Of a stretch of 64,000 nt of DNA, positions 11,442 through 30,817 are shown one piece after another. The stretch is from Arthrobacter russicus. Lineage in GTDB: Bacteria > Actinomycetota > Actinomycetes > Actinomycetales > Micrococcaceae. The stretch spans positions 2,418,001 to 2,482,000 of the forward strand of contig NZ_JAVDQF010000001.1 of NCBI RefSeq assembly GCF_031454135.1, written 5' to 3'. Below the pieces are notes generated by a model. That model was given only the letters and a program-made list of their open reading frames with translations, ran no database searches and was not told the origin of the DNA. Positions within the stretch are counted from its first letter, which is position 1. Each line of letters starts with the position of its first letter. A program made the translations under genes and the position numbers.

Positions 11442-11528
11442 CCGGGCGGTGCGGTTGGCAGGAGTGCGGCTCAGCAATTGATAGACTGGATCACCGAACC
11501 CGACCGAATCCAAAAGACGGAGCCGATC

Positions 11529-14444: not shown

Positions 14445-14896
14445 GCGTCAACCTGACCTTGCTGATCGTGATGGGCGTGCTCTACGCGGTCGGCATCTAC
14501 CTGTTGCTCGAACGCAGTCTGACCCGGGTGCTGATGGGCTTGATGCTTTTGGCCAACGGGACCAACATCCTGTTGCTGACCACCGGCGGCTATGCCGGCT
14601 TGGCTCCCTTGCTCGGCAAAGCAGTGCCGCCGGGGGAATACAACGACCCCTTGCCGCAGGCTCTGATCCTGACCTCGATCGTGATTTCGTTCGCGGTGAC
14701 CGCGTTCATGCTGGGCATCATCTACCGGACCTGGGTGCTGGCCCGCCAGGATGAAGTCCAGGACGACGCCGAAGACCGCAGAGTGGCGACCCAGCCGATG
14801 TTCGACGCCGAAGAAGATGTGGAAATCCCCTTGGAAACCACCGAGTTCGACGACCCAGCCGCCGGCAAAAGCGCCAAAAAGGGAGGCAAGCCGTGA
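14441..14896 (+). CDS. mrpC: Na+/H+ antiporter subunit C (MrpC)
   Basis: A 151-residue membrane subunit related to NuoK. The signature region GIYLLLERSLTRVLMGLMLL and NGTNILLLTTGG matches the family, with three hydrophobic segments. The charged tail (residues about 100-151) is longer than in the shortest MrpC proteins. The start ATG overlaps the mrpA stop (ATGA), indicating translational coupling, and its own stop overlaps the mrpD start. Confidence 0.93.
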   Translation: MSVNLTLLIVMGVLYAVGIYLLLERSLTRVLMGLMLLANGTNILLLTTGGYAGLAPLLGKAVPPGEYNDPLPQALILTSIVISFAVTAFMLGIIYRTWVLARQDEVQDDAEDRRVATQPMFDAEEDVEIPLETTEFDDPAAGKSAKKGGKP

Positions 14897-16554
14897 ATCT
14901 CACCCTGGCTTCGCTCACCCCGCTGGCGATCATCCTGCCGTTCCTCGGCGCCGCGGTCGCGTTTTTGCTGATCCGGCATCCCAAGGCGCAGCAGGCGGTG
15001 AGCATTTCGGTGCTCAGCGTGACCCTGCTCCTGGAAGTCGGATTGCTCGCCCAAGTCTGGAACGGCGGCACGGTCGCGGTGAACCTGGGCGGCTGGTTGC
15101 CGCCCTGGGGCGTGGTGCTGGTGGTCGACCAGTTCTCCTCGCTGATGCTCGTGGTGTCCTCCGTGGTGGGGCTCGCGGTGCTCATTTATGCGACCGGGCA
15201 GGGTGCTGCGGACGGCGATGCCGAAGGCCCGGTGTCGATTTTCCACCCGACCTATTTGATCCTGATGGCCGGGGTATCCAACGCTTTCCTTTCCGGCGAC
15301 CTGTTCAACCTGTATGTGGGATTCGAGATCCTGCTGACCGCCAGTTATGTGCTCATGACTTTGGGCGGCACCGGTCCGCGGATCCGGGCCGGGGTGACCT
15401 ATGTGGTGGTCAGCGTGGTCTCTTCGATGCTGTTCCTGATCGCGATCGCGATGATCTACGGTGCCACCGGCACGATCAACATGGCAGATCTGGCGGTGAA
15501 GCTGGCCAATTTGGACCAAGGCACGCAGACCCTGCTGCACTTGATGCTGTTGATCGCCTTCGGGATCAAGGCGGCGGTCTTCCCGCTCAGTTTCTGGTTG
15601 CCGGACTCCTATCCGACCGCCCCGGCACCGGTCACCGCGGTGTTCGCCGGGTTGTTGACCAAAGTCGGCGTCTACGCGATCGTGCGGACCGAAACGCTGC
15701 TCTTCCCGGGGGACAGTCTCAATGACTTCTTAATGGTGGTGGCACTGCTGACCATGGTGGTGGGCATTCTGGGTGCAATAGCGCAGTCGGATATCAAACG
15801 TATGCTCTCTTTCACCCTGGTTAGCCATATCGGTTACATGGTCTTCGGCTTGGCCATGTCCTCGGTGCTCGGACTGGGAGCGGCAGTCTATTACGTGGTG
15901 CACCACATCACGATCCAGACCAGTTTGTTCCTGACCACCGGACTGATCGAACGCCGTGGCGGTTCGACGTCGATGCACCGCCTGGGCGGCTTGGCGAAGC
16001 TTTCGCCGATCCTCGGCATCCTGTTCTTCATCCCGGCGATGAATTTGGCCGGAATTCCGCCGTTCTCCGGTTTCCTGGGCAAGCTCGGCCTGCTGCAGGC
16101 CGGCGCGGCTTTGGACACCCCGCTGGCCTGGGTGCTGGTCGCCGGCAGCGTCGCGGTTTCGCTGCTGACCTTGTTGGCGATCGCCAGGGTCTGGAACCGG
16201 GTGTTCTGGCGCAGCCCGCAGGACACCGAAGAAGCGCCGGAGCCGGCATTGCTCGAAGGCTTGCCGGAGGCCGACCCGTCGGCCGGTGCCGGTACCGCCG
16301 CGGTGAAGGTCAAGGCCCGGCCGTTGCCGCGGATGATGGTCGGCCCGACCGCCGGACTGGTCGGCGTGGGTTTACTGCTCACCGTCTTCGCCGGACCGTT
16401 GGTGCAGCTCGCCGACAACGCGGCCCGGGAAATGCTGGACCGCCGGCCCTATGTGCAAGCAGTGCTCGGCGATGCCGGGGTCAAAGCCTTGGAAGCGAGC
16501 CGGCCTGAACTGGTGAAGAAACCGGAACCGAGCCAAGGGACGGTGAAGCCATGA
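14893..16554 (+). CDS. mrpD: Na+/H+ antiporter subunit D (MrpD)
   Basis: A 553-residue proton-pumping-type subunit homologous to NuoM/N. Conserved features are LFNLYVGFEILLTASYVLMTL with the helix-5 glutamate, AFGIKAAVFPLSFWLPDSYP with the key lysine, LTKVGVYAIVRTETL, and SDIKRMLSFTLVSHIGYM. The GTG start overlaps the mrpC stop by 4 bp, and the stop overlaps mrpE by 4 bp. The C-terminal 110 residues include a linker rich in Ala, Pro and Glu before a last membrane helix. Confidence 0.93.
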   Translation: MNLTLASLTPLAIILPFLGAAVAFLLIRHPKAQQAVSISVLSVTLLLEVGLLAQVWNGGTVAVNLGGWLPPWGVVLVVDQFSSLMLVVSSVVGLAVLIYATGQGAADGDAEGPVSIFHPTYLILMAGVSNAFLSGDLFNLYVGFEILLTASYVLMTLGGTGPRIRAGVTYVVVSVVSSMLFLIAIAMIYGATGTINMADLAVKLANLDQGTQTLLHLMLLIAFGIKAAVFPLSFWLPDSYPTAPAPVTAVFAGLLTKVGVYAIVRTETLLFPGDSLNDFLMVVALLTMVVGILGAIAQSDIKRMLSFTLVSHIGYMVFGLAMSSVLGLGAAVYYVVHHITIQTSLFLTTGLIERRGGSTSMHRLGGLAKLSPILGILFFIPAMNLAGIPPFSGFLGKLGLLQAGAALDTPLAWVLVAGSVAVSLLTLLAIARVWNRVFWRSPQDTEEAPEPALLEGLPEADPSAGAGTAAVKVKARPLPRMMVGPTAGLVGVGLLLTVFAGPLVQLADNAAREMLDRRPYVQAVLGDAGVKALEASRPELVKKPEPSQGTVKP

Positions 16555-17114
16555 CCAAACAACGGATTTCGCTCAAACAGGAGTTGCCGCTGCTGATTTG
16601 GCTGGTCCTGGTCTGGGGTGCCCTGTGGCGTGATTTCAGTCCGGGCAATCTGGTCTTCGGCGCGATCATCGCCTTGCTGGTCACCCGGGTGTTCTACCTG
16701 CCTCCGGTGGAGCTCAGCGGCCGGTTCAATGTCTTCTACTTCCTGGAATACGCCGGGGTGTTCCTCTGGCACGTCGCAGTGGCCAGTGTGCAGGTCAGCT
16801 ATCTGCTGCTGGCGCAGGGGCCGCGGATCAAAAACGCCGTGGTGGCAGTGCCGCTGCGCAGCCACTCGGATCTGATGGTGACCGCGACCGGGCACGTGAT
16901 CTCGCTCATCCCGGGCTCCTTGGTGATCGAAGTGGACCGCTCCACTTCGACGCTGTATCTGCACACCATGGACGTGAAGAACGACGACGACGTGCGCAAG
17001 ATCCGCGCCGACGTCCGCGACGTGGAAGCCTGGCTGATCCGGGTGATGGGCAGCAAAGCCGAACTCGCCGCTTTGCGAGCGGAACAGCCCGCGGCGGACG
17101 AGGTGAAGTCATGA
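16551..17114 (+). CDS. mrpE: Na+/H+ antiporter subunit E (MrpE)
   Basis: A 187-residue membrane subunit. It shows family hallmarks: LVLVWGALWRDFSPGNLVFG at the N-terminus, FLEYAGVFLWHVAVASVQVS, and the conserved cytoplasmic stretch TATGHVISLIPGSLVIEVD followed by STLYLHTMDVKN. It is required for assembly of the Mrp complex in characterised systems. It overlaps both mrpD and mrpF by 4 bp. Confidence 0.92.
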   Translation: MTKQRISLKQELPLLIWLVLVWGALWRDFSPGNLVFGAIIALLVTRVFYLPPVELSGRFNVFYFLEYAGVFLWHVAVASVQVSYLLLAQGPRIKNAVVAVPLRSHSDLMVTATGHVISLIPGSLVIEVDRSTSTLYLHTMDVKNDDDVRKIRADVRDVEAWLIRVMGSKAELAALRAEQPAADEVKS

Positions 17115-17398
17115 CTGTTTTCGGCGCCCCGTTGATGACCATGACCCTGATCGTGGTGGGGGTGATCCTCAGTGCTGCGGCGCTCGGTGCGATTTACCGC
17201 ATCGCGGTTGGCCCGTCCTTGTTGGACCGGGTGCTGGCCGCCGATGTGCTGCTCGCGATCTTCTCCGCAGCCCTGGCCACCGATATGGCGGTCAACCGGC
17301 ATTTGAACAACCTGCCGCTGCTGGTGGGGCTCACGATCATCGGCTTCATCGGCTCGGTCACGGTAGCCCGCTACGTCGCGGAACGGAGGCCGCAATGA
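17111..17398 (+). CDS. mrpF: Na+/H+ antiporter subunit F (MrpF)
   Basis: A small 95-residue subunit with three predicted membrane helices. The conserved motif AIYRIAVGPSLLDRVLAADV identifies the MrpF/PhaF family. It overlaps mrpE and mrpG by ATGA junctions, consistent with fixed stoichiometric synthesis in the operon. A second in-frame ATG lies nine codons further in, but the overlapping first one fits the operon pattern. Confidence 0.92.
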   Translation: MTVFGAPLMTMTLIVVGVILSAAALGAIYRIAVGPSLLDRVLAADVLLAIFSAALATDMAVNRHLNNLPLLVGLTIIGFIGSVTVARYVAERRPQ

Positions 17399-17763
17399 AC
17401 CTCGATTCCGTCATCGACCTGCTGACCGCGATCTGTCTGATCCTCGGTTCCGCACTGTCGCTCGCCGCAGCGGTGGGCTTGCTGCGCTTCCCGGATTTGA
17501 TGAGCCGGATGCACGCGGCGACCAAACCGCAGGTGCTCGGCCTGTTTTTGCTGCTCCTGGCCATGGCCCTGCAACTGCGCAGTTGGGCGGTGCTGCCGAT
17601 CCTGCTGATTGCCTGGATCTTCCAGTTGCTGACCGTCCCGGTGTCCGCCCATATGATCGGCCGGGCCGGCTACCGGACCAAGCACTTGCGCAAAGACACG
17701 CTCAGTCAGGACGACTTGAACGACGTCGTGGAGGCCGCCGCGAACCGGGAAGAGCCCCGCTGA
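17395..17763 (+). CDS. mrpG: Na+/H+ antiporter subunit G (MrpG)
   Basis: Last subunit of the Mrp operon, 122 residues. The family motif is AVGLLRFPDLMSRMHAATKP, followed by hydrophobic segments (VLGLFLLLLAMALQLRSWAV). The C-terminal 35 residues are charged and probably cytoplasmic. A weak hairpin (GAACCC-TTAC-GGGTTC, 17784-17799) without a T-run follows the stop and may mark the end of the operon. Confidence 0.92.
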   Translation: MNLDSVIDLLTAICLILGSALSLAAAVGLLRFPDLMSRMHAATKPQVLGLFLLLLAMALQLRSWAVLPILLIAWIFQLLTVPVSAHMIGRAGYRTKHLRKDTLSQDDLNDVVEAAANREEPR

Positions 17764-17970
17764 TCGCTTTTGGTTGACTCGGCGAACCCTTACGGGTTCC
17801 AGCTGAGATTCTGCTGTGGCTACTTTCCCGCCCGACAGGCCGGTAACATCAGGGATTACGGGTAATTATCCCTGGCAACGACGGCGGAATTCAGCGAAGC
17901 TGCTGAGCCGCCGTCATTGGTGAGGAATCGACGAGAACCGTCCGAGCAGCCGGACGGTGACGGGGGCACG
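17764..17970 (+). other. Intergenic leader region before the giant adhesin gene
   Basis: No gene is supported. The region contains the weak hairpin at 17784-17799, an A+T-richer patch GGGTAATTATCCC (17859-17871) that is nearly palindromic and could contain the promoter, and a hairpin with 8-bp GACGGCGG/CCGCCGTC arms (about 17879-17915) that would sit in the 5' untranslated region. I found no riboswitch signature. Confidence 0.4.
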
Positions 17971-20900
17971 ATGTTCCGCAGTGTAAGCGTTCTGACCGGC
18001 CGGCACCTCAAAGGTGCTGCCTTGCGCCGTCGTCGGACGTTCCGAAAGGCAGCCCACGGTGCGGTGGCTGCCTCCGCTTCGCTGGCCCTGGTGGCCTCCG
18101 GCATGGTTGCCGGCTTGGTGGGCGGCACGGCTCCAGCGCAGGCCGATTACGCCACCGCTGGTTCCGGCCCCTACCAATCCCGGATCTACTGGTTCGACAT
18201 GACGAACTTCCCGCTGAACACCGTGGGCGGCACCCAGACCTTCTCGCCTGCTCCGGGCGTGTCCGCAACCGTGACGATGACTGCGAAGAGCGCGTTGTCC
18301 GGCACGAATATCGGCCTAACCGCCCAATCGTTGAATTCCTACTCCCGCAGCCCCGCTGGTCAAGCTTATGCGCCCGCGGGAAACGTGGCGATCGCCAATA
18401 GCGTCGCGGGGGCCAAGATCGGCGCTACCTTCACGTTTTCGATGACCGTCAATGGCCGCTCGATCACGCCGCGGGTAGTTGCGACCGACGGCGAAGCTAC
18501 TGCGGCAAATGGCTCGGAAGCCCTGCAGTACAACACCACCGGAACCGATTGGGTGGATTTTCAGGATTACCGCAGCGGCACTGCGATGTGGGCCGGCACG
18601 CTTTCCGGCAAGCAGCTACGGATTACAAATTCGGAGGGAACACAATCGACGCCCTTCGTGTTCAGCGACACCACCCAGGTCAGCACCCGGATCGAGGGCG
18701 GCGGCACCCAGGCGGCGGCGTTCGGCTTGATGCTTCCCTTCGATTACGGCGATGCGCCAGCCAGCTACGGCATCGCCCAGCACCTAGTGCCGCAGACCGC
18801 GTCCGGAACCGCGCAGAGCACCAGCAGCCCGCCGGCGCTGAACGAATCCGCGGGCGTGTACCTGGGCCGGGTGGCCCCGGATTCCGAAGCCCGGACCGGC
18901 GCGACCCTCACCACTGACGACACCACCGGCGCTGCTGATGAGGGCGTGTCGCAACTCCTCGCCAACGGCGCGGGCAGCTTCCCGCCGTACAGCCCCGGAC
19001 AGCGGAATTACTCGGTCCAAGTGGTCTGTACTGGCCCGGGAGCCACGGTCAAAGCCTGGTTGGACACCAGCAAGAACGGTGCGTTCGAGGACAATGAGGC
19101 GGCGACCACCACCTGCCAGAACGGCTCCGCCACACTGAATTGGAGCAACCTGCCCGCCGCGAGCGGCTCGGCGCCGGACCTGGTCGCCCGGTTCCGGATC
19201 GCCAGCGCCGCCGCCGATGTGGCCACCCCCGCCGGCAGTGCTGCAGACGGCGAAGTGGAAGATTACGAGGTCGCAGCTCCGGTGCAGACCGCGTGCCCGG
19301 CTCCGGTGAACATCGTCAACGGCGGCTTCGAACAGCCGGTGATGACGGGTAACTTCCAGAACTACAACCAGAGCCAGGTCCCCGGCTGGCGCACCACGGC
19401 CAGCGACGGTCTGATCGAGTACTGGAAGAATGGTTTCAACGGGGTGCCCTCGGCCGAAGGCAATCAATTCGTCGAAATCAATGCGACCCAAGTCTCCGCG
19501 CTCTATCAGGACATCGCGACCACGCCGGGCCAGACCATCCGCTGGTCGCTGGCGCACCGCGGCCGGCAGGGAACCGACGTGATGAAGGTCGTCACCGGCC
19601 CGCCCGGCGGCACGATGGTGCAGCAAGGACCGAACATCAGCGATGGGAACACCGCCTGGGGCCGGTATAGCGGGACGTATACGATTCCGGCCGGGCAGAC
19701 CACAACCCGCTTCCAATTCGAATCGGTGAGCTCCACCGGCGCGGCCAGCATCGGCAACTTCCTGGACGACGTCACGTTCAGCAACTCGCCCTGTCTGACC
19801 GCGCAGAAGTCGGTGACCAATGTCAGCGGCAACAACCCGGCCCGGATCGGCGATACCCTCGAGTACTCGGTGGACGTCACGAACGCCGGCGGTTCCGATT
19901 CACCGTTGAGCGTGCTCGCCGACCAGATCCCGACCGGCACCACCTATGTGCCGGGCTCGCTGAAAATCACCGCCGGGACCGGCGCCGGCAACCTCACCGA
20001 CGCCGCCGGCGACGACCGCGGCGATTACAGCGCCGCGCAGGACCAAGTAACCGTGCGATTGGGCACCGGCGCCACGCCGACCGCCGGTGGCACCCTGGCT
20101 CCCGGGGCCAAAGCCACGGTGACCTTCCGGGTCACCGTGAACCCCGAATCCGCGGACAGTACGGTGCACAATGTCGCCACCGTCTCCTACCAGGATCCGA
20201 TCCTGAACAATGCGGTCAAGACGTCGTATTCCAATACCGTGAGCACCCCGGTCGCTTCCGCCGCGGATCTGCAGATCACCAAGGAGCAGGTCACGCAATA
20301 CCCCTTGGCCGGGCAACCGATCGAGTACCGGCTCACGGTCAAGAACAATGGCCCGCGCCCGGCCACCGGGGTCACCGCGCAGGACACGTTGCCCGCCGCG
20401 ATCACCGGGGGCACCGGCCAGGTCGACGGCGGAAGCGCCTGCACGGTCAGCGGGCAGAACCTCAGCTGCGCGATCGGCAATCTCGCCGTAGGCGCCACCC
20501 GGACCATCACGGTCAAGGGCACCGTGGCGGCGAATGCGGTTCCGGGCAGCAGCTTCACCAACACCGCGACGGTCTCCGGCAACGAGTACGACCAGGTGCC
20601 GGGCAACAATTCCTCCAGCGTCACCACTACGTTGCTCAAGCCCGGGATCACGGTGACCAAGTCCGCCGGGGCCATCCAGGACACCAACAGCAACAGCCGG
20701 CTCGACGCCGGCGATACCGTTCCGTACAGCTTCGTGGTCAAGAACACTGGTGACACCACGCTCACATCGGTCAAGGTCACTGACGCCAAGGTGCCGAACA
20801 TCAGCTGCCCGGCGACCACGCTCGCCCCGAATGCTTCCACCACGTGCACCGGCAGTTATGTGCTGACCCAGGCGGACATCGACGCCGGGAAAGTTGACAA

Positions 20901-23900
20901 TTCGGCCACCGCGACCGGCACCCCGCCGGTCGGCGATCCGATCACCTCGCAGCCCAGCGCGGTCACCACGCCGGTGAACGCGCCGAATTCGATGACGATC
21001 ACCAAATCCGCCGGTGCCGTCCAGGACAAGAACGGCAATGGCCGCACCGATGCCGGCGACACCATCGACTACAGCTTCGTGGTCAAGAACACCGGAACCA
21101 CCACGCTGAACAGCCTGGCGCTCTCCGATCCGAAGATCGCCGGCGTCAGCTGCCCCACCGCCACCTTGGCGCCGGGGGCCTCGACCACTTGCGTCAAGAC
21201 CTACCAGATCACGCAGGCCGATATGGATGCCGGCAAGATCGTCAACCAGGCCACTGGAACCGCCAAGGGCAGTGCCGGCAGCGACGTCAATGCGACCTCC
21301 AACGAAGTCACCACTCCGCTGACCCAGACCAATAGCTTCGACTTCACCAAGAGCGCAGCGGCGCCGGTGGATTCGAACAAGAACGGCCGGATCGACGCCG
21401 GGGACACCATCGGCTATTCGTTCAAGTTCACCAATACCGGCAGTACCACGCTGAAGAACCTCAGCGTGACCGACAGCCTGGTGCCCAATGTGGTCTGCTC
21501 GACCACTACGTTGGCCCCGGGCGAATCGGTAACCTGCACCGGCAGCTACACCATCACCCAGGCGGACATGAACGCCGGCAAGGTGGACAACAGCGCCACC
21601 GGTACGGTGACCCAGCCGGACGGCAGCACGGCGAACAAGACCTCCACGACGTCCACGCCGTTGACCGGCGTCGGCTCCTTGACCTTCGACAAGCAGCAGG
21701 GCACGCCGACCGACGCGGACGGCAACCCGATCACCGGGCGCGAAGTGGGCAAGGGTGACAAAATCCCCTACACCTTCCTGGTGACCAACACCGGTTCGGT
21801 CACGGTCAGCAGCGTCACCGTGGTGGATTCAAAGGTTTCCGGCATCAACTGCGGCGGCGTAACCAGTCTGGAACCGGGCAAGTCGGTGACTTGCTCCGGC
21901 GTGTACACGATCACCCAGGCCGACGTCGATGCCGGTGCGGTGACGAATACCGCGAATGCGAACGGCAAAGACCCCAAGGGCGGAAGCGTCGATTCGGCGA
22001 ATGATTCCACCACGCTCCAACTGACCCAGACGCCCAAGATCAGCCTGAGCAAAGCGGCCGGCGAGATCACGGACACCAACAACAACGGCAAGAACGATCC
22101 CGATGACACCTTGGCCTACACCTTCACGGTGAAGAACGAAGGCAATGTCACGGTGAACACGATTTCGGTGAGCGATCCGAAGGTCGCTGAGATCTCCTGC
22201 CCCAGCAGCTCGCTGGCCCCCGGCGAGTCGGTGACCTGCACCGGAGCCTACCGGCTCACCCAGGCGGATTTCGACGCCGGCAAGGTGGACAACGAAGCCA
22301 CCGCCAAGGCCAAGGCCGGAAACACCGAAGTGAGCTCGGAGAAAGCCACCGCCACGAAGCCGTTGCCCCTGGTGGACGCGGTCACCGTGAAAAAGACCGC
22401 GGGCACCCCGGTGGATGCGAACAACAACGGCCGCACCGACGCCGGGGACACGATCAGCTATACGTTCCTGGTGACCAACACCGGAAACACCACGCTGAGC
22501 AATGTCACGGTGAATGATCCGAAGGTCAGCGCGGTGAACTGCCCGGTGACCTCGTTGGCCGCCGGGAAGTCGGTCACCTGCACCGGCACGCACACGATCA
22601 CCCAGGCCGAGGTGGACGCCGGCAAGGCGGACAACACGGCCACCGCGGTGGGCACGCCGCCGGGCCGCCCGCAGATCAGCTCCAATGAATCCAGCACCAG
22701 TACGCCGATCGCGCCGGTCGACGCTTTGACCGTGGTCAAGGATTCCACCGGGCCGGTCGACGGCAACCAGGACGGCCGGATCACCGCGGGGGAGAAGATC
22801 CCCTACACCTTCAAAGTGACCAACACCGGCAGCAGCACGCTGACCGGGGTGCGGATCGCCGACGCCAAAGTGGCCGCGACCTGCGATCCGACCACGCTGG
22901 CACCGGGCGCTTCGGTGACCTGCACCGGCGAATACACGATCAGCCAAGCCGATATCGACGCGGGCAAGGTGGACAACACCGCCACCGCCTTCGGCACCCC
23001 GCCGGGCGGCCGGGACGAAAAGGAATCCGGCCCGTCGTCCAAGACCGTCACGATCGCCCAGGTGAAGTCGCTGGAGCTGGTCAAGGACGTCGCGGGCATC
23101 GACGACAACAACAAGAACACCCGGACCGATTACGGCGACTACATCCGCTACACCTTCAAGGTGACGAACACCGGAACCGTGAGCCTGGACAACCTGGTGA
23201 TCAACGATCCGAAGGTCGGCACGGTGAGCTGCCCCAGCGCGGCACTGGCACCCGGAGCCTCGGTCACCTGCACCGCGACCTACGAGATCAACCAGCCCGA
23301 CGTCGATGCCGGCCAAGTGGTCAACAAGGCCACCGCCACGGCGAACGACAAGTCCGGGACCGCGGTGACCTCGAACGAGTCCACCAAGACCGTGCCGACC
23401 AGCAGCTTGGCGCAAATCGCCTTGAAGAAAACCGCAGCGGCGCCCAAAGACGTCAACAACAATGACACGATCGACGCCGGCGACACCGTCGACTACACCT
23501 TCGAGGTGCGGAACACCGGCGATGTGAGTATCGACGGGTCGACGGTCAAGGACCCGTTGATCCCGGGATTGACCTGCCCGGCGGGAGTAATCGCGCCAGG
23601 CCAGGTCAAGGTCTGCCGCGCCACCTACACGATCACCCAGGCCGACGTCGACGCCGGCAAGATCGTGAATACCGCCACCGCGAGCGGCACCGATCCCAAG
23701 GGCAATCAAGTGACCGCGACGGACTCGGTCACCGTGACCATCCCGGCGGACAGCAACTTGGACATCGTCAAGACTGCGAGCGAGCCCAGGCTGGCCGATG
23801 GCCAGACCCAGCTCGGCGCGGGGTCGCTCATCGACTACAGCTTCAAAGTCACCAACGATTCCAATGTGACGGTCAGCGACGTCGCAATCGTGGACGACAG

Positions 23901-26900
23901 GCTCAAGGGCCCGATCACGTGCGAGAAGACCACGCTGGCGCCGAATGAATCGACGACGTGCACGGGCACCTACACCATGACCACCGAAGACTACGACGCC
24001 GGATACGTGCTCAACACGGCGGAAGCCACCGCCAAGGACCCGTCTGGCGCAACCGTGGATTCCTGGGATGACTCGGCGCTCGTCGAGCTCAAGCAGATCT
24101 CCAATATGACCATGAAGAAGACTGCGGGTGCGATCCAGCACCAGCCTGGCAGCGACAAAACGCAAGCCGGAGACACGGTCGAGTACACCTTCGAGGTGAA
24201 GAACACCGGAAACACCACGCTCTACTTGGTGGGCGTCCGGGACAGCCTGGTCGGCACGGTCAAGTGCCCGGTCGCCACCTTGGCACCGGGGGCATCCACT
24301 ACCTGTGAAGCCAGCTACAGCATCACCCAGGCCGATATCGACCGGGGCACCCTGGAGAACAAGGCCACCGGCGTGGCCACCCCGCCGTCGGGCGAGGAAA
24401 TCACCTCGCCCGAAGACAAAGCGACCGTGGACACCAAGGGCGAGTCCGCCTTGTCCTTGCAGAAGCAGGCTGCTGCGCCCAAGGACGCGAACGGCAACGG
24501 CCGGATCGACCCCGGGGACACCGTGGACTACACCTTCACGCTGACCAACACCGGCCAAGTCACGCTCAAAGACCTCTCGGTCACGGACAACCAGGTCGCC
24601 ACGGTGACCTGCCCCACCGGATCCTTGGCGCCGGGTGCTTCGGCGACCTGCACCGCAACCCGGGTCCTGACCCAAGCGGACATCGACGCGGGCAAGGTGG
24701 ACAATACCGCGACCGGCTCGTCCACCGACGCCTACGGCACCACGGTGACCAGCAAAGAAGCCACCGCAACCATCGCGATCCCGCGGCAGGATGCGCTGAC
24801 CATCAAGAAGTCGGCCGGCACCTGGAACGACGCCAATGGCAATGGAATGATGGATCCGGGCGAGACCATCCCGTACAGCTTCCTGGTGACCAACACCGGG
24901 ACCACCACGCTGACCGGGATCAAGGTCAACGACGCGCTGGTCGCCCCGATCACCTGCGCCAAGACCACGCTTGCTCCGGGTGAATCCGTCACCTGCACCG
25001 GCAGCTACACGCTGACCCAAGAAGACGTGGACCGCGGTGATGTGCTGAATTCCGCCACTGCCACCGGGACCACGCCCGACGGCGGCACCACGACCTCGCC
25101 GGGTTCCGAAGTGGATACGCTGATCCCGCGCACCGCGAAGCTGAGTTTCGACAAGCAGGCCGGGCAGATCACGCACACTTCGGGGAATACCCGGACCCAG
25201 GCCGGGGACACCATCAGCTACACCTTCGTGGTGAAGAACGAGGGCAACGTCTCGATCGACTTCCTGCAGATCCGGGATCCCAAGGTCGGCATGATCGACT
25301 GCAGTAAAGACGTGCTCAAGGCCGCTGAATCGATGACCTGCACAAAGGTGTACACGATCACCGCGGCGGACATGGACTCCGGTTCGGTGAAGAACACCGC
25401 CTTCGCCGAAGGCGAAGACCCGGACGGCAACAAAGTCGACTCGAACACCGACGAGACCAGCACCACGCTCGACGCGACCACCGAATTGGCGATCAAGAAG
25501 AGCGCCGCCGCACCCAAGGACGTGAACGGCAACGGGCTGACCGACGCCGGGGACACGATCGACTACTCCTTCGCGGTGACCAACAACGGCACGGTGACCA
25601 TGGACAACCTCAAGGTCAACGACGCGAAGCTGCCCGGTGGCGCGATCAGCTGCCCGGCGACGTCGCTCGCGGCCGGCCAAACGATGACCTGCACCGGGAC
25701 CTACACGATCACCCAGGCGGACGTCGACGGCGGCAAGGCGGACAATACCGCGACGGTTTCCGGAACGCCGCCCGGCAGCACGGTGCCGGTGACCTCGGAA
25801 CCGAGCGGAACCAGCACCCCGATCTCCGGCAGCAGCTCGTTGACCATCGCCAAAGACGGTGCCGCACCGAAGGACGTCAACGGCAACGGTCTGGTCGATG
25901 CCGACGACACCATCGATTACACCTTCACGGTGACCAACACTGGCACCACCACCCTGCGGAATCTGGTGATCAACGATCCGCTCATCCCGAGCGCGAACAT
26001 CACCTGCACGGCCACCGAATTGGCGCCCAAAGCGGTCACCACGTGCCGGGGCAGCTACACGATCACGCAGAGCGACGCGGATGCCGGCAAGGTGCTGAAC
26101 ACCGCGACCGCGACCGGAAAGCCGGATCAGGGCGATCCGACCACCTCGCCCGGCGCGGAGAAGGAGACCGAGATCCCGGCCGTGGACCGGTTGGAGATCA
26201 CCAAGTCGGTGGTGCCGAACAACGGCAAGGCCTACAACGATGCGAACGGCAACGGCCGCCCTGATGCCGGAGAGCGGATCGAATACCAGTTCGTGGTCAA
26301 GAACACCGGAAACACCACGCAGCACGACCTGAGGGTCGCCGATCCGAAGATCGCGAATGTCTCCTGCCCGGTCACCGAGTTGGCAGCCGGCGCCTCGACC
26401 ACCTGCACCGCGAGCTACCCGATCAGCCAAGCGGATCTCGACGCCGGCACGGTGGACAACACCGCGACGGTGACCGGAACCCCGCCGGCCGGTCGGCCGG
26501 ACACCGCAGTCGACAGCAACAAGGTCACCACGCCGCTGGAGCGCGGGAACAGCCTCACGGTGGCCAAAGCGGTCAGCAGCGTCGACGACGTGAACGGCAA
26601 CCAACGCACCGACGTGCCGGACGTGGTCAACTACACCTTCACCGTGACCAACAACGGCAACACCACGGTCAAGGAGATCGCGGTCCAGGACGCCAAGATC
26701 CCCGCGGTGAGCTGCGCTCCGACCGAACTCGCACCGGGCGCGGTTGCCACTTGCACCGGGAGCTACACGATCACCCAGGCGGAAGTGGACAACGGCAAGG
26801 TCAGCAATACCGCCACCGCGGTAGGGACCGGGCCGGACGGCAAACAGACCACCTCGGAGCCGTCCACGGCGGAACAGCCGACCACTGCGGTGGCCGCGAT

Positions 26901-29142
26901 GTCCTTGGTCAAAAAAGTCGACCCCGCGGCGCCGAAGGCCAGCAAGGCCGGTGACAAGATTGCCTACGTCTTCACCCTGGCGAACACCGGTACCTTGACC
27001 CTTTCGGACGTTTCGGTGGCCGAGCAGCTGCCCGGCGTCACGGTCAGCTGCCCCGCCGGACCGCTGCTGCCCGGCAAGAGCGTCGATTGCACTGGAAGCT
27101 ACACCGTCACGCAGGCCGACATCGACAACGGCAAGGTCACCAACCGGGCCACCGGCAATGCCACCGCGCCGGTTCCGGGCAGCACCGGAACCCAGCCGGT
27201 GAGCACCGACCAGGCGAGTGTGGACGAGATCCTTACCCGTAACAACCAGTTGGACCTGAGCAAGACGGTCAAGCAGATCATCACCGAGCAGCCCTCCGGC
27301 CGGCCCGTGGCCGGGGACCAGATCGTGTACGCGCTCAAGGCGACGAACCGGGGCAACACCACGTTGACCGACGTCGTGATCACGGACAGCAAACTGCCCG
27401 GACTCAGCTGCACTGTGGCATCGTTGGCCCCGGGCACCGAGCTGAACTGTGAAGGCACCTACACCTTGACCCAGGCCGACGCCGATGCACCCACCGTGGA
27501 CAACACCGCGACCGCCAAGGCCACCGGCCCGGGCGGTACCGCGGTGGACGGCGGCAAGCAGTCCACGTCGACGCCGACCTCGCAAGAAGCGGCATTGCAG
27601 ATCAAGAAGTCCTACCAGCCGCTCACCGACACCAACGGCGACGGCGTGGTCGGCGCCGGCGACAAGGTCACCTTCACCTTCGTGGTGACCAACTCGGGTA
27701 CGGTGACGCTGCGCGCGGTCGAGATCGATGACCAATTGGCGCTCGACGGGGAGCCGGTGTGCGAAGCGACCAGCCTGGCGCCCAAGGCTTCGACCAATTG
27801 CACAGCGACCTACACCTTGACTCAAGCCGATGTCGAAGCCGGCAGCGTGCGGAACTCGGCCACGGCGATCGCGGCCAAGCCGGACGGCGGCGATATCGAG
27901 TCGCCGGCGAGCGAAGTCACGGTCGCGATCGACCGGACGCCCGGTCTGGCCTTCGAGAAGAAGATCGCCGGGACCAAGGACCTGAACAACGACGGCCGAC
28001 TCGCCGCCGGGGACGAGATCGATTACGTGTTCACGGTCAAGAACACCGGCAACGTGAAGTTGAGCGGGGTCGCGGTGGTGGACCGGAAGCTCGCCGACGC
28101 CGGGGTGTCGATCAGCTGCCCGAGCACGGATCTCGATCCGGGACAGAGCATCGATTGCACCGCGACGTACCGGATCAGCCAAAGCGACGCCAATGCCGGA
28201 AGCGTGAAGAACACCGCGCACGCCGAAGCGAAGCAAGGCGAAACTCCGGTAACCTCGGTGGAATCCTCGAAAGAGCAGCCGCTCACCGTGCTGGACGAAC
28301 TTTCCGTGGACAAGAAAGTCACCAAGACCAATGACGTCAACGGCAACGGCAAGTTGGACGCCGGCGACACTATCGAGTACCAGTTCCTGGTGACCAATTC
28401 CGGCACCCGGGACGCGAGCGGGGTCAGCGTCAACGATCCGCGGGTCAAGGTCGAATGCCCGGCCAGCGTGGTCGGCGCCGGGACCAGTATGACCTGTACC
28501 GCGGTCTACACGGTGACCCAGGCCGATGTGGACGCCGGCAGTCTGCAGAACACCGCGACCGCTACCGGGAGCACCCCGGACGGCAAGCCGAACACCAGCG
28601 AGCCGGATTCGGTCACCACGCCGTTGGACGGGGCGCCCGGAGTGAAGCTGCTCAAGCAGGCCGGTCCGGTGACCGATGCCAACGGGAACGGCCGGAAAGA
28701 CGCCGGGGACAGCATCGTCTACACGTTCACGGTGACCAATACCGGGAACACCACGCTGTTCGGCATCGTGGTCCAGGACGAGAAACTGGCTGCTGCCGGA
28801 ATCTCGGTCGACTGCCCGGTCAGCCAGTTGGCTCCGGGACAGTCCACGACCTGTACTTCGGCGCCGTACCAGGTGACTGCGGCCGACGTCGACGCCGGTG
28901 CGGTGTCGAACGTCGCCACGGCCAGGGTGAGCAGCGGCAGCAGCGGCGGGCAGAAGCTCACGTCGGATCCGGCCTCGGTGAAAACCGGACTGGACCCGAA
29001 ACCGACTCCGCCCACACCGCCGGTGGAACCATTGCCGAATACCGGCGTCAGCAACCTCTGGATCATCGGGTTGGGAGCGTTGATCATCGTGATCGGTGCG
29101 ATCCTGCTGTTCCTGGGAGCGCGCCGGCGCCGTAGGAACTGA
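17971..29142 (+). CDS. Giant LPxTG-anchored surface adhesin with about 24 tandem beta-sandwich repeats
   Basis: A 3723-residue wall-anchored fibrillar protein. The signal peptide ends APAQA at residue 57. Residues about 60-290 (IYWFDMTNFPLNTVGG; FDYGDAPASYG near 257) resemble a CshA-type adhesin head. GEVEDYEV near residue 427 is a known module end. A DUF642-like carbohydrate-binding region (NGGFEQPV) follows at about 450, then two DUF11 domains from about 608. From about residue 891 come roughly 24 DUF7507-like repeats of about 116 residues, each with an early Lys, two Cys 11-15 residues apart, and usually a D-x-N-x-N-G calcium-type loop. The end is proline-rich, then LPNTG, a membrane helix and ARRRRRN. 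The ATG at 17971 is preceded by GGGGG; a TTG at 17917 is less likely. No sortase gene lies in the window. Confidence 0.9.
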   Translation: MFRSVSVLTGRHLKGAALRRRRTFRKAAHGAVAASASLALVASGMVAGLVGGTAPAQADYATAGSGPYQSRIYWFDMTNFPLNTVGGTQTFSPAPGVSATVTMTAKSALSGTNIGLTAQSLNSYSRSPAGQAYAPAGNVAIANSVAGAKIGATFTFSMTVNGRSITPRVVATDGEATAANGSEALQYNTTGTDWVDFQDYRSGTAMWAGTLSGKQLRITNSEGTQSTPFVFSDTTQVSTRIEGGGTQAAAFGLMLPFDYGDAPASYGIAQHLVPQTASGTAQSTSSPPALNESAGVYLGRVAPDSEARTGATLTTDDTTGAADEGVSQLLANGAGSFPPYSPGQRNYSVQVVCTGPGATVKAWLDTSKNGAFEDNEAATTTCQNGSATLNWSNLPAASGSAPDLVARFRIASAAADVATPAGSAADGEVEDYEVAAPVQTACPAPVNIVNGGFEQPVMTGNFQNYNQSQVPGWRTTASDGLIEYWKNGFNGVPSAEGNQFVEINATQVSALYQDIATTPGQTIRWSLAHRGRQGTDVMKVVTGPPGGTMVQQGPNISDGNTAWGRYSGTYTIPAGQTTTRFQFESVSSTGAASIGNFLDDVTFSNSPCLTAQKSVTNVSGNNPARIGDTLEYSVDVTNAGGSDSPLSVLADQIPTGTTYVPGSLKITAGTGAGNLTDAAGDDRGDYSAAQDQVTVRLGTGATPTAGGTLAPGAKATVTFRVTVNPESADSTVHNVATVSYQDPILNNAVKTSYSNTVSTPVASAADLQITKEQVTQYPLAGQPIEYRLTVKNNGPRPATGVTAQDTLPAAITGGTGQVDGGSACTVSGQNLSCAIGNLAVGATRTITVKGTVAANAVPGSSFTNTATVSGNEYDQVPGNNSSSVTTTLLKPGITVTKSAGAIQDTNSNSRLDAGDTVPYSFVVKNTGDTTLTSVKVTDAKVPNISCPATTLAPNASTTCTGSYVLTQADIDAGKVDNSATATGTPPVGDPITSQPSAVTTPVNAPNSMTITKSAGAVQDKNGNGRTDAGDTIDYSFVVKNTGTTTLNSLALSDPKIAGVSCPTATLAPGASTTCVKTYQITQADMDAGKIVNQATGTAKGSAGSDVNATSNEVTTPLTQTNSFDFTKSAAAPVDSNKNGRIDAGDTIGYSFKFTNTGSTTLKNLSVTDSLVPNVVCSTTTLAPGESVTCTGSYTITQADMNAGKVDNSATGTVTQPDGSTANKTSTTSTPLTGVGSLTFDKQQGTPTDADGNPITGREVGKGDKIPYTFLVTNTGSVTVSSVTVVDSKVSGINCGGVTSLEPGKSVTCSGVYTITQADVDAGAVTNTANANGKDPKGGSVDSANDSTTLQLTQTPKISLSKAAGEITDTNNNGKNDPDDTLAYTFTVKNEGNVTVNTISVSDPKVAEISCPSSSLAPGESVTCTGAYRLTQADFDAGKVDNEATAKAKAGNTEVSSEKATATKPLPLVDAVTVKKTAGTPVDANNNGRTDAGDTISYTFLVTNTGNTTLSNVTVNDPKVSAVNCPVTSLAAGKSVTCTGTHTITQAEVDAGKADNTATAVGTPPGRPQISSNESSTSTPIAPVDALTVVKDSTGPVDGNQDGRITAGEKIPYTFKVTNTGSSTLTGVRIADAKVAATCDPTTLAPGASVTCTGEYTISQADIDAGKVDNTATAFGTPPGGRDEKESGPSSKTVTIAQVKSLELVKDVAGIDDNNKNTRTDYGDYIRYTFKVTNTGTVSLDNLVINDPKVGTVSCPSAALAPGASVTCTATYEINQPDVDAGQVVNKATATANDKSGTAVTSNESTKTVPTSSLAQIALKKTAAAPKDVNNNDTIDAGDTVDYTFEVRNTGDVSIDGSTVKDPLIPGLTCPAGVIAPGQVKVCRATYTITQADVDAGKIVNTATASGTDPKGNQVTATDSVTVTIPADSNLDIVKTASEPRLADGQTQLGAGSLIDYSFKVTNDSNVTVSDVAIVDDRLKGPITCEKTTLAPNESTTCTGTYTMTTEDYDAGYVLNTAEATAKDPSGATVDSWDDSALVELKQISNMTMKKTAGAIQHQPGSDKTQAGDTVEYTFEVKNTGNTTLYLVGVRDSLVGTVKCPVATLAPGASTTCEASYSITQADIDRGTLENKATGVATPPSGEEITSPEDKATVDTKGESALSLQKQAAAPKDANGNGRIDPGDTVDYTFTLTNTGQVTLKDLSVTDNQVATVTCPTGSLAPGASATCTATRVLTQADIDAGKVDNTATGSSTDAYGTTVTSKEATATIAIPRQDALTIKKSAGTWNDANGNGMMDPGETIPYSFLVTNTGTTTLTGIKVNDALVAPITCAKTTLAPGESVTCTGSYTLTQEDVDRGDVLNSATATGTTPDGGTTTSPGSEVDTLIPRTAKLSFDKQAGQITHTSGNTRTQAGDTISYTFVVKNEGNVSIDFLQIRDPKVGMIDCSKDVLKAAESMTCTKVYTITAADMDSGSVKNTAFAEGEDPDGNKVDSNTDETSTTLDATTELAIKKSAAAPKDVNGNGLTDAGDTIDYSFAVTNNGTVTMDNLKVNDAKLPGGAISCPATSLAAGQTMTCTGTYTITQADVDGGKADNTATVSGTPPGSTVPVTSEPSGTSTPISGSSSLTIAKDGAAPKDVNGNGLVDADDTIDYTFTVTNTGTTTLRNLVINDPLIPSANITCTATELAPKAVTTCRGSYTITQSDADAGKVLNTATATGKPDQGDPTTSPGAEKETEIPAVDRLEITKSVVPNNGKAYNDANGNGRPDAGERIEYQFVVKNTGNTTQHDLRVADPKIANVSCPVTELAAGASTTCTASYPISQADLDAGTVDNTATVTGTPPAGRPDTAVDSNKVTTPLERGNSLTVAKAVSSVDDVNGNQRTDVPDVVNYTFTVTNNGNTTVKEIAVQDAKIPAVSCAPTELAPGAVATCTGSYTITQAEVDNGKVSNTATAVGTGPDGKQTTSEPSTAEQPTTAVAAMSLVKKVDPAAPKASKAGDKIAYVFTLANTGTLTLSDVSVAEQLPGVTVSCPAGPLLPGKSVDCTGSYTVTQADIDNGKVTNRATGNATAPVPGSTGTQPVSTDQASVDEILTRNNQLDLSKTVKQIITEQPSGRPVAGDQIVYALKATNRGNTTLTDVVITDSKLPGLSCTVASLAPGTELNCEGTYTLTQADADAPTVDNTATAKATGPGGTAVDGGKQSTSTPTSQEAALQIKKSYQPLTDTNGDGVVGAGDKVTFTFVVTNSGTVTLRAVEIDDQLALDGEPVCEATSLAPKASTNCTATYTLTQADVEAGSVRNSATAIAAKPDGGDIESPASEVTVAIDRTPGLAFEKKIAGTKDLNNDGRLAAGDEIDYVFTVKNTGNVKLSGVAVVDRKLADAGVSISCPSTDLDPGQSIDCTATYRISQSDANAGSVKNTAHAEAKQGETPVTSVESSKEQPLTVLDELSVDKKVTKTNDVNGNGKLDAGDTIEYQFLVTNSGTRDASGVSVNDPRVKVECPASVVGAGTSMTCTAVYTVTQADVDAGSLQNTATATGSTPDGKPNTSEPDSVTTPLDGAPGVKLLKQAGPVTDANGNGRKDAGDSIVYTFTVTNTGNTTLFGIVVQDEKLAAAGISVDCPVSQLAPGQSTTCTSAPYQVTAADVDAGAVSNVATARVSSGSSGGQKLTSDPASVKTGLDPKPTPPTPPVEPLPNTGVSNLWIIGLGALIIVIGAILLFLGARRRRRN
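20641..29010 (+). repeat. Tandem ~350-bp coding repeats in the adhesin gene
   Basis: About 24 direct repeats averaging 348 bp, each encoding one domain of the form K-x(n)-DxNxNGRxDAGDTIxYxF-...-SCPxxxLAPGxSxTCTG-...-TQADxDAGKVxNxAT. Units have diverged enough to be told apart. Several (units 10, 11, 14, 19 and 20 by my count) lack the Asp/Asn loop. Repeat number is prone to change by recombination and to misassembly with short reads. Confidence 0.85.
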
Positions 29143-29154
29143 ACCAAGGGGAAT

Positions 29155-29625
29155 ATGAACAAGCACCGCAAACCGTCTCTGCTCATCGCCGCCGTGGCTG
29201 CGGCCGGTCTGGCCTTGGCCGGCTGCACGCCGTCGTCGGACGGGTCTTCTGACGGGTCCTCCTCGGCGCTCGCCCCGGCGCCGAGCACGCAAGCCAGCCA
29301 AGGCGTGATCTCGCCGGTGCTGCCGCCGGTGCCGGAGCTGGACGGGGCGCAGGGCATCCGCTCCAGCATCACTTTGGACCAATGCGGGATGGCAGCGGGC
29401 CCGGTGACAGCCGCCGGCCAAGCGACCAATGGCGCCGGCTCGGCGACCGACATCGTGATCGCGGTGGATTGGGCCACGGCCAGTTCGGACGTGGTGGCGC
29501 GCGGCGTCGCCGTGCTCAAAGCGGTGGCTCCCGGGGCCACCGTGCCGTGGAGCGTCAAAGCCCAACTGGATTACCAGGGCGCCGTGAATTGCATCCCCAA
29601 CGCGCAGGCCGGAAAGCTCAAGTAG
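29155..29625 (+). CDS. Small secreted lipoprotein
   Basis: A 156-residue protein with a lipoprotein signal: MNKHRKPSLL, a hydrophobic core, then the lipobox ALAGC. It is followed by a Ser/Gly/Asp linker and a compact domain with the ALQ-free core ITLDQCGMAAGPVTAAGQAT, which contains a further Cys. The second half (IVIAVDWATASSDVVARGVAV) looks like a FxLYD- or DUF-type beta domain that I cannot name. It starts 12 bp after the adhesin stop with AAGGGGAAT ahead of the ATG, so it is probably co-transcribed with the adhesin and may help its export or anchoring. That is inference from position only. Confidence 0.7.
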   Translation: MNKHRKPSLLIAAVAAAGLALAGCTPSSDGSSDGSSSALAPAPSTQASQGVISPVLPPVPELDGAQGIRSSITLDQCGMAAGPVTAAGQATNGAGSATDIVIAVDWATASSDVVARGVAVLKAVAPGATVPWSVKAQLDYQGAVNCIPNAQAGKLK

Positions 29626-29628
29626 GCT
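29623..29628 (+). promoter_or_regulatory. -10 box of leaderless DUF4235 gene
   Basis: TAGGCT overlaps the TAG stop of the lipoprotein gene and is followed by AGGGAC and the ATG at 29635. The AGGGA could alternatively be a closely placed ribosome site, so both internal promoter and read-through are possible. Confidence 0.4.
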
Positions 29629-29634
29629 AGGGAC

Positions 29635-29895
29635 ATGAATCTGATCTTCAAGCTTCTGGCCGCCGGAATCAGCTTCGGCGCGGGGTTCGCCGCCAACAAG
29701 GTCGTGGACACGGTGTGGACCAAAACCACCGGAAACCCTCCGCCCAAAGACGGCGAGAACCTGGAGCACAGCCTCCGCTCGGCGTTGATTTTCGCGGTGG
29801 TTTCCGCGACCGTGGCCGCGATCATCCAAACCCTGACCGGGCGCGGGGCGCAGCGGGCCATCGCCAGATTCAACCAGTCCCGCGACCTGACCTGA
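29635..29895 (+). CDS. DUF4235 membrane protein
   Basis: An 86-residue protein with two hydrophobic segments (KLLAAGISFGAGFAANKVVD and SALIFAVVSATVAAIIQTL), a short polar loop containing WTKTTGNPPPKDGENLEHSL, and a basic C-terminus. This is the standard layout of the actinobacterial DUF4235 family, whose function is unknown. It lies 9 bp behind the lipoprotein gene. Confidence 0.82.
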   Translation: MNLIFKLLAAGISFGAGFAANKVVDTVWTKTTGNPPPKDGENLEHSLRSALIFAVVSATVAAIIQTLTGRGAQRAIARFNQSRDLT

Positions 29896-29907
29896 ACGCC
29901 TCCCACC

Positions 29908-29963
29908 GGGCGGCCAGATCTGCAGGCCAAATCGGCTTTATAAGCTGCAGAGCTGGCCACTCA
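29908..29963. repeat. Intergenic inverted repeat, copy 3
   Basis: Left arm GGGCGGCCAGATCTGCAGG, spacer CCAAATCGGCTTTATAAG, right arm CTGCAGAGCTGGCCACTC. It has the same core as the copies at 8959 and 10046. It lies between the DUF4235 gene and the TPP riboswitch and could terminate the upstream transcript. Confidence 0.75.
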
Positions 29964-30005
29964 ACGTTGGGTGCGACGCGGGTGTAAACTTGCACAGCAA
30001 TCAAA

Positions 30006-30098
30006 CGACAGGGGAGCGCCGCCGCAAGGCGGGCGCTGAGAGTGCGGATAGCCGCAGACCCTCGAACCTGATCCGGTTAGTACCGGCGAAGGGAGTCG
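30006..30098 (+). promoter_or_regulatory. TPP riboswitch (THI element)
   Basis: Contains the conserved thi-box parts in order: ACAGGGGAGCGCC, the variable stem CGCAAGGCG, GCTGAGAGTGCGG, CCGCAGACCCTCGAACCTG, ATCCGGTTAGTACCGGCG, and AAGGGAG. These are the pyrimidine- and pyrophosphate-sensing arms of the TPP aptamer. It precedes ykoE by about 55 bp. With thiamine pyrophosphate bound, expression of the thiamine-precursor transporter should be shut down. Confidence 0.95.
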
Positions 30099-30107
30099 AG
30101 TGCTCTT

Positions 30108-30147
30108 CGGCGTGTCACCGTACACGCCGCCCCTCCTGAAAAGGAGG
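30108..30147 (+). promoter_or_regulatory. Expression platform: hairpin and SD-sequestering stem
   Basis: An 8-bp hairpin CGGCGTGT/ACACGCCG (30108-30129) is followed by CCTCC-TGAAAA-GGAGG (30132-30147). The right arm is the ribosome binding site of ykoE, 5 nt before its ATG. GGGAG at the 3' end of the aptamer (30091-30095) could compete for CTCC, suggesting translational control. Confidence 0.6.
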
Positions 30148-30152
30148 ACAGT

Positions 30153-30815
30153 ATGGCGAACGAGCAATCCGGGGCGGCCAATACCGCAAACAATTCCGCC
30201 GGTCCGCAGTCTTCTGCGCAGAAATCCCTTGCCCAGCGCAGCCGTTGGCGAGTGGTGGACATCGTGGTTGCGGCGGTGCTGGGCGTCGCCGTCGGAGTGG
30301 TCTTCTGGGCCTGGTCGGCGCTCTACGGCCCGGTTTCGATCGCCTTCGCGGCGTTCCCGCCGCTGGGCGGGCTCTACGGCGGCGGTTGGCTGATCGCGGG
30401 CGTGATCGGCGGGCTGGTGATTCGCAAACCGGGCGCCGCATTGTTCTGCGAACTGATCGCGGCCGCCGTCGAAGGCGTTCTGGGCACGCATTTCGGCATG
30501 ACTGTGCTGCTTTCCGGACTGGTCCAAGGACTCGGCGCCGAGTTCGGCTTCGCGCTGTTTCGCTACCGCCGGTTCAATCTGCCGCCGGCTCTGCTCGCCG
30601 GGGCTCTGGCCGGCGCGGCGATGGGCCTCAACGACAACCTGATTTCCAATGTGGCGTGGGAGTTCAGCTGGAAAGTCCTCTACTTCGGCTTTGCCGTGGT
30701 CTCCGGCATGGTCATCGCCGGCCTGGTTTCCTGGCTGATCACCCGGGGGCTGGCCCGCACCGGCGCGTTGGCCAATCTGGCGTCGCGGCGGGCCGCCGGC
30801 GAACCAGCGTTCTGA
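30153..30815 (+). CDS. ykoE: ECF transporter S component, HMP/thiamine-specific
   Basis: A 220-residue integral membrane substrate-binding subunit of the YkoE family, which takes up hydroxymethylpyrimidine or thiamine. After a polar N-terminus (residues 1-33) come five or six helices. VVFWAWSALYGPVSIAFAAF and PLGGLYGGGWLIAGVIGGLV match the family, as does LIAAAVEGVLGTHFGM. It is the first gene of ykoEDC, placed directly under the TPP riboswitch, which agrees with the proposed substrate. The GGAGG ribosome site is subject to hairpin occlusion. Confidence 0.92.
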   Translation: MANEQSGAANTANNSAGPQSSAQKSLAQRSRWRVVDIVVAAVLGVAVGVVFWAWSALYGPVSIAFAAFPPLGGLYGGGWLIAGVIGGLVIRKPGAALFCELIAAAVEGVLGTHFGMTVLLSGLVQGLGAEFGFALFRYRRFNLPPALLAGALAGAAMGLNDNLISNVAWEFSWKVLYFGFAVVSGMVIAGLVSWLITRGLARTGALANLASRRAAGEPAF

Positions 30816-30817
30816 GT

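Follow-up and report, generated by a model that had tools for sequence, protein, structure and literature searches.

The window analyzed here is a stretch of 64,000 nucleotides from Arthrobacter russicus (RefSeq assembly GCF_031454135.1, contig NZ_JAVDQF010000001.1, positions 2,418,001 to 2,482,000), in which a gene on the plus strand (17971..29142) encodes a protein of 3723 residues that is very probably a fibrillar adhesin, with a head borne on a wall-anchored stalk of domains that are probably isopeptide-locked. In the mechanism proposed for it, the chain would be exported via a signal peptide, its head (CshA_NR2, GEVED and DUF642-like domains) would be carried on a stalk of 26 immunoglobulin (Ig)-like domains, two DUF11 and 24 DUF7507, and a sortase would join the C-terminus to the cell wall at an LPNTG signal. 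Each stalk domain probably forms an internal Lys-Asn amide bond catalyzed by a nearby Asp, each DUF7507 repeat probably adds a hairpin disulfide between its two Cys, and some three quarters of these repeats may bind calcium in the loop that follows their first strand. An Ig-like domain measures about 4 nm, so 26 of them would make a stiff rod of very roughly 100 nm, which may resist pulling and proteases and keep the head off the cell. The head appears to change fast while the length of the stalk is kept, and a membrane lipoprotein encoded at the same location probably serves the same system.

Architecture and predicted bonds of the adhesin

The reading frame is open from an ATG at 17971 to 29142, with an alternative TTG start codon upstream at 17917. 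The translation begins with a putative signal peptide, recognized by eye, of about residues 1-59 (17971..18147), with predicted cleavage between APAQA and DYAT. It is followed by a CshA_NR2 domain (Pfam PF18651; residues 71-254, 18181..18732; E 1.7e-19, above cut-off) and a GEVED domain (PF20009; residues 360-434, 19048..19272; E 1.3e-8). A first-pass annotation, made from the sequence alone, had placed a DUF642-like region next, at about residues 441-607 (19291..19791). The DUF642 model gives no significant match there in the window protein itself (E up to 1), but PF04862 does match over cut-off in the corresponding region of G005, a second species of the genus, and of G001, another relative. 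Two DUF11 domains follow. The first (residues 610-740, 19798..20190) is matched both by Pfam DUF11 and by the NCBIfam model of an isopeptide-forming fimbrial domain, RrgB_K2N_iso_D2 (56.5 bits against a cut-off of 30), and the second (residues 766-885, 20266..20625) by Pfam, which reports four DUF11 stretches in the protein overall. The rest of the stalk consists of 24 DUF7507 repeats, R01-R24 (residues 890-3672, 20638..28986), delimited with our own profile search and each bearing Lys, Asp/Glu and Asn together with a Cys pair. The hidden Markov model search that the first-pass annotation had proposed, with Pfam DUF7507, gave E=0 and 25 stretches; the twenty-fifth is most simply the second DUF11 domain, since the DUF7507 model matches that domain as well. 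The protein ends in an LPNTG motif, a membrane segment and a basic tail (residues 3688-3721, 29032..29133), matched above cut-off by the NCBIfam LPXTG_anchor model (TIGR01167).

An N-terminal domain of predicted adhesive type, a stalk of 24 DUF7507 and two DUF11 domains, and a C-terminal wall anchor in a genome that encodes sortases are the parts expected of a fibrillar adhesin, and CshA_NR2 followed by GEVED is the order expected of the CshA type. The domain matches thus agree with the first-pass description of a sortase-anchored protein with a CshA-like head, GEVEDY, two DUF11 regions, about 24 repeats and an LPNTG anchor, and the sortase that it had proposed to look for elsewhere in the genome was found three times over. 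All three sortase genes lie away from the adhesin gene; one is a class E sortase over cut-off (at 2179654), and no sortase occurs among the ten flanking open reading frames (ORFs) scanned. Gene-wide, dN/dS between the window and a second assembly of the same species is 0.13, as expected under purifying selection on the adhesin gene. The two other sortase-like genes are divergent and 2.6 kb apart (G000:C1:1141746-1144737, G000 being the window's genome), and neither reaches a class cut-off. Three further frames of this genome, of 2154, 2220 and 637 amino acids, have weak DUF7507-like matches (G000:C1:3168069-3170591, 2725560-2725841 and 2799411-2799680); only the 2220-residue frame is over cut-off, with its neighbors.

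The repeat number appears to be real. Pairwise protein identity of the repeats averages 42% (range 28-59%) and Tandem Repeats Finder (TRF) detected no DNA-level tandem array in the gene, so collapse of the array during assembly is unlikely. The second assembly, a metagenome-assembled genome (MAG) from cattle duodenum (Renibacterium sp. RGIG571), spans the complete gene, is 97.9% identical at the DNA level over 21 kb, and shows the same 24 repeats, ordered identically. This MAG is the nearest named relative, so the label "environmental" for the host is unproven. The claim that such a size is exceptional for an environmental actinobacterium was rejected: counting the window's genome, DUF7507 occurs in at least 27 of 59 relatives (at least 21 over cut-off), at least 99 of 295 genomes of the family (at least 91 over cut-off) and at least 154 of 394 genomes of the class (at least 127 over cut-off). 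Arrays of equal or greater length occur in several relatives; DUF7507 frames span 3150 to 5401 amino acids in G004, G006, G013 and G040, and 6440, 8199 and 8489 amino acids in G427, G580 and G412 of the class. In G004, long DUF7507 genes are present four times, at C2:626000-817500 (L131-L133) and on C1 (L288), with products of 3676, 3228, 5401 and at least 1916 amino acids, and two of these genes directly follow one another; the most alike repeats in its three C2 genes are 96-100% identical.

DUF11 and DUF7507 have been named CLIPPER and CLIPPER_2, domains predicted to link Lys and Asn within the molecule by means of a catalytic Asp, and one DUF11 crystal structure, of an Acinetobacter silvestris protein, contains an isopeptide bond (Costa et al., 2025, PMC12617251). 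The DUF7507 reference triad is Lys72/Asp112/Asn152, with spacings of 40 and 80 (PMC12617251). The triad of R12 in the window protein is Lys8/Asp49/Asn88, with spacings of 41 and 80. Asn is present in all 24 repeats, the acidic residue is Asp in 23 and Glu in one, and the complete triad aligns in 23 of 24 repeats of an array that also matches the CLIPPER_2 profile; Lys is in the aligned column in 23 repeats, while in R17 it lies five residues earlier, shifted by a loop insertion (by eye). The isopeptide bond that the Lys/Asn pairing had suggested on first reading is therefore strongly supported as a prediction.

The two spaced Cys residues noted initially occur in all 24 repeats, separated by 12 intervening residues (13 in R04), and account for 48 of the 54 Cys residues of the protein, an even number. 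Among 309 repeats of 61 loci from the window and its relatives, both Cys are present in 201, neither in 101 and a single one in seven, a covariation with a Fisher p of 2e-72 that, the sequences being related, is no true probability. This count leaves out nine loci, namely L129-L136, which are longer or additional arrays of already-sampled genomes, and the same-species MAG (L146). Of the 302 repeats with both or neither Cys, 112 align across the positions of both Lys and Asn, and among these the triad is retained by 78 of the 79 that bear Cys and by 32 of the 33 that lack it. The triad thus seems to be the constant part of the domain and the disulfide an optional extra. Since the Cys pair is present throughout the array and is gained and lost as a unit across relatives, a disulfide within each repeat, as first proposed, is likely. 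A separate idea, drawn from the first nine arrays, that disulfide-bearing arrays are more diverged than Cys-free ones was unsupported (Spearman -0.28, p 0.078; Mann-Whitney p 0.15, 30 versus 10 arrays) in 41 array samples with at least four repeats, which omitted L129-L136 and included both the window and the same-species MAG.

Calcium binding in the repeat loops is plausible from the motif. The pattern D-x-[DN]-x-[DNS]-x6-[DE] matches the protein 21 times (in 200 shuffles, matches averaged 0.66 and reached at most 4), and an EF-hand-like loop, which we take to resemble the calcium loops of SdrD B-repeats, is at the expected place in 18 of 24 repeats (counted by eye). An AlphaFold model of R12-R13 (mean predicted local distance difference test score 95.9, predicted template modeling score 0.83) consists of β-strands with one short helix per domain; Lys8 falls on the first strand, and Asn88 on the one that follows the helix. 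Foldseek matches to this model include antigen I/II C-terminal domains, among them 2wza, whose title names two intramolecular isopeptide bonds.

Several observations weigh against the reading as an isopeptide-locked, wall-anchored adhesin. The LPXTG_anchor model is loose, passing its cut-off in nine of 14 control genomes and matching 16 times over cut-off in the window's genome, so the anchor assignment rests also on the succession of LPNTG, membrane segment and basic tail. The strict calcium loop is missing in six of 24 repeats. CLIPPER_2 domains are expected to have a CnaA-like Ig fold, but integrin and transglutaminase domains, at 7-14% identity, head the Foldseek and VIA-align rows, and since these are general Ig-like folds, the fold search alone singles out no isopeptide domain. 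Sequence searches of the PDB returned no credible relative, with no row for the repeats and one chance row for the second DUF11 (a thiolase, E 0.22). The published CLIPPER structure 9IFR is absent among the Foldseek and VIA-align rows shown, which counts as no evidence against the fold.

Stalk length and head divergence

The array of G005 contains exactly 24 repeats, and 19 of the 24 window repeats pair best with the G005 repeat that bears their own number (all except R02, R10, R16, R17 and R21), a register reached in none of 100000 permutations, whose maximum was seven. The array therefore looks frozen between two species. Repeat numbers are 24 in both strains of the window species, 24 in G005 and two in the G001 relative, which ends in an LASTG anchor. 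The arrays of G004 and G006 differ, their most alike repeats being 96-100% identical.

The G005 protein starts with its DUF642 domain, CshA_NR2 and GEVED being missing. When the two assemblies of the window species are compared, synonymous divergence (dS) is highest for CshA_NR2 (0.39), lower for GEVED and the DUF642-like part (0.19-0.24) and for the DUF11 pair (0.09), and lowest for the repeats (0.041), so that CshA_NR2 has about ten times the value of the repeats. Binned divergence likewise peaks in the head segment at 18251..19500 (plus strand), with 15.3% and 11.3% in 18251-18750 and 12.8% in 19251-19500; the two intervening bins have 4.4% and 6.0%. Values range over 0-3.6% upstream of the gene and over 0-3% in the stalk, except for one stalk bin of 6.0%. 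Given this tenfold excess and the 24-repeat protein of a sister species lacking CshA_NR2, the simplest reading is that head alleles have been exchanged by recombination. Degraded versions of the locus also occur. G002 retains a broken remnant of the adhesin head with an in-frame stop (G002:C1:1949836-1951654; L121, L125) and has no DUF7507 match in its genome, and the decayed locus of G003 has head, repeat and lipoprotein pieces in one short frame.

These comparisons bear on what the protein does. It might instead be a surface structural, S-layer-like or biofilm matrix scaffold, in which the repeats act as coat or spacer and the head binds no ligand, and the retention of a 24-repeat stalk in G005 without CshA_NR2 and GEVED indicates that the stalk is useful without that head. 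We nevertheless consider a scaffold unlikely. CshA_NR2 is a known adhesive domain, and NR2-like and GEVED-like domains are found predominantly at the tip of repeat-stalk proteins, according to a 2023 survey (PMC10952558). The head is the part that diverges fastest in the window species, as expected of a contact surface, and the tip of the G005 protein still has its DUF642 domain. A variable-length "Periscope" protein, whose repeat number raises or lowers the head, is highly improbable: the long one-domain array, the head and the LPXTG anchor, a layout shared with Sgo_0707 (PMC8201768), and the two-repeat relative in G001 would fit it, but adjacent Sgo_0707 repeats are 82-100% identical (PMC8201768), near-identity being the proposed source of length variation in this class (PMC8201768), whereas those of the window average 42% and form no DNA array by TRF, and the number is 24 in both assemblies of the species and in G005, with 19 in register. 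The two-species comparison, with an identically ordered array of 24 repeats in both and a head that is absent from one and changes fast in the other, contrasts with length-variable adhesins and fits the idea that divergence between neighboring repeats locks stalk length.

A lipoprotein gene behind the array

Twelve base pairs past the adhesin stop begins a gene for a putative lipoprotein of 156 amino acids with an LAGC lipobox, recognized by eye (29155..29625, plus strand). The G005 lipoprotein is 53% identical and also lies directly behind the adhesin. In a plain search of the 59 relatives, eight genomes gave matches; every one of the five strongest (E 1e-8 or lower) touches either an adhesin or a remnant of one, and the remaining three are weak (E 4e-4 to 1e-3). 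A four-row profile searched in the 295 family and 394 class genomes matched 47 and 60 of them, respectively, at E <= 0.001, and all 59 returned loci were examined. Matches were called full-length at 115 or more of 156 positions, a threshold set in the script, and a lipoprotein was considered directly behind an array when a same-strand DUF7507 frame ended within about 0.3 kb upstream. Such an array precedes 15 of 21 full-length matches and one of 38 shorter ones, which mostly comprise signal and lipobox only, the one being the G003 remnant. The one further full-length match listed, the second copy of G004, lies directly behind a 15-repeat array and brings the total to 16 of 22. The 16 array-linked matches span 11 genera of six families, and by eye a sortase-type anchor ends 14 of the 16 upstream frames, those of G118 and G472 being without one. 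When profile members and the same-species copy are excluded from the 59 loci, the proportions are 10 of 16 versus one of 38 (Fisher p 3e-6, which is indicative only, the genomes being related).

Other observations argue against the pairing. Five full-length matches (G458, G631, G369, G423 and G412) are not directly preceded by an array within about 8 kb, the one in G412 having a DUF7507 gene 0.9 kb downstream of it, and the full-length match of G041 is an unrelated longer protein. Viewed from the arrays, the lipoprotein is present at only four of 33 complete 3' ends (from 40 regions, seven of which end inside the array), three of them known beforehand, so that a lipoprotein behind every array was rejected. 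Covariation of lipoprotein and repeat sequences was likewise unsupported (rho 0.09 over 120 comparisons of 16 pairs; family rho 0.04, Mantel p 0.33), with small clusters agreeing by eye. The sampled C-terminal repeats beside the lipoprotein are Cys-free in the first array of G004 and in G006, G118, G173, G266 and G684, and it also accompanies Cys-bearing arrays, so it would not simply be a disulfide helper. The lipoprotein members scanned matched no Pfam or NCBIfam family over cut-off. By a fold-like pattern the nearest is FxLYD (NF038353), to which the G427 member is weakly similar (E 7e-4, below cut-off); the best member tried reached 19.4 bits against a cut-off of 23, and the window lipoprotein gave no FxLYD row.

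The lipoprotein could thus be an unrelated neighbor hitch-hiking in synteny, a reading with a substantial though less than even chance. The many complete 3' ends that lack it, the five full-length matches remote from an array and identities that do not track those of the repeats favor coincidence. The recurrence behind arrays in 11 genera of six families, with partial matches so rarely placed there, is harder to reconcile with it, as are the next large downstream ORF, which by eye differs among genomes (e.g., the window has a transporter there, G013 an L3-like ribosomal protein), and the two arrays of G004, each of which has its own divergent lipoprotein copy behind it. We tentatively suggest, as a possibility on the weaker side, that adhesin and lipoprotein form a dedicated two-gene unit, in which the lipoprotein, tethered outside the membrane, would receive the giant chain at the exit of the secretion channel, hold it while isopeptide bonds and disulfides close one domain after another, or pass it to sortase; more generally, it may aid export or anchoring of the stalk. 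The lipoprotein would, if the suggestion is true, be the first accessory factor that we know of to be tied to CLIPPER-type stalks. Stalks locked by isopeptide bonds are of interest as very tough fibers made of one protein chain, and a lipoprotein recurring directly behind their genes in 11 genera is a candidate factor for the export, folding and transfer to sortase of a chain of about 3700 residues. No description of the pairing was found in titles and abstract beginnings of the open-licence PMC papers listed, which does not establish its absence from print.

Genomic surroundings and related systems

Immediately upstream of the adhesin gene are Mrp-type Na+/H+ antiporter genes (11436-17114, plus strand; hits to A/B, C, D and E subunits). 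Downstream, a thiamine pyrophosphate (TPP) riboswitch (Rfam RF00059, over the gathering score; 30000-30111, plus strand) lies just upstream of a plus-strand gene (30245-32410) with two ATP-binding cassette (ABC) ATPase domains of the cbiO or energy-coupling-factor type, probably a thiamine-precursor importer. Apart from this riboswitch, no RNA element reached the gathering threshold in 16900-30300, a range that includes the gene and its leader. In consensus scans, a promoter-like site and a terminator-like site were detected upstream of the gene, and a second terminator-like site downstream; the terminator numbers are near those expected by chance, and none of these sites enters the interpretation. 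An antisense ORF of 2666 amino acids (21829..29829, minus strand) was rejected as a codon-bias shadow rather than a gene: antisense stops would come from only five of the 3724 sense codons (TTA, CTA, TCA), and G005 has no such open frame.

Among known systems, the stalk is closest to the CLIPPER_2 (DUF7507, PF24346) and CLIPPER (DUF11, PF01345) domains, with which it shares the Pfam match, the triad, its spacing and tandem use in long surface proteins (PMC12617251). Disulfides are frequent in CLIPPER_2, occurring together with the isopeptide bond in 34.9%, and the word calcium appears once in that paper, in a cited title (PMC12617251). Against this background, the window adhesin has a Cys pair in all 24 repeats and EF-hand-like loops in 18. 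Acinetobacter silvestris B9T28_05395 likewise combines a CshA_NR2 head, GEVED and a CLIPPER stalk; it differs in its length of 2129 amino acids, its Gram-negative host, an OmpA-like anchor and cadherin-like domains (PMC12617251), where the window adhesin has a DUF642-like domain, a DUF7507 stalk and LPNTG. Streptococcus gordonii CshA similarly presents CshA_NR2 and then GEVED at the tip of a repeat stalk, made of 17 repeats of its own type, and the predominant actinobacterial partners listed in the same survey are CshA-, SpaA- and SdrD_B-like stalks (PMC10952558). Periscope proteins such as Sgo_0707 also place a tip domain on a tandem rod with an LPXTG anchor, using near-identical repeats of variable number (PMC8201768), whereas those of the window are diverged and, as far as seen, constant in number. 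The kind of protein described here has thus already been published, while its pairing with the lipoprotein gene and the frozen array of 24 repeats look new.

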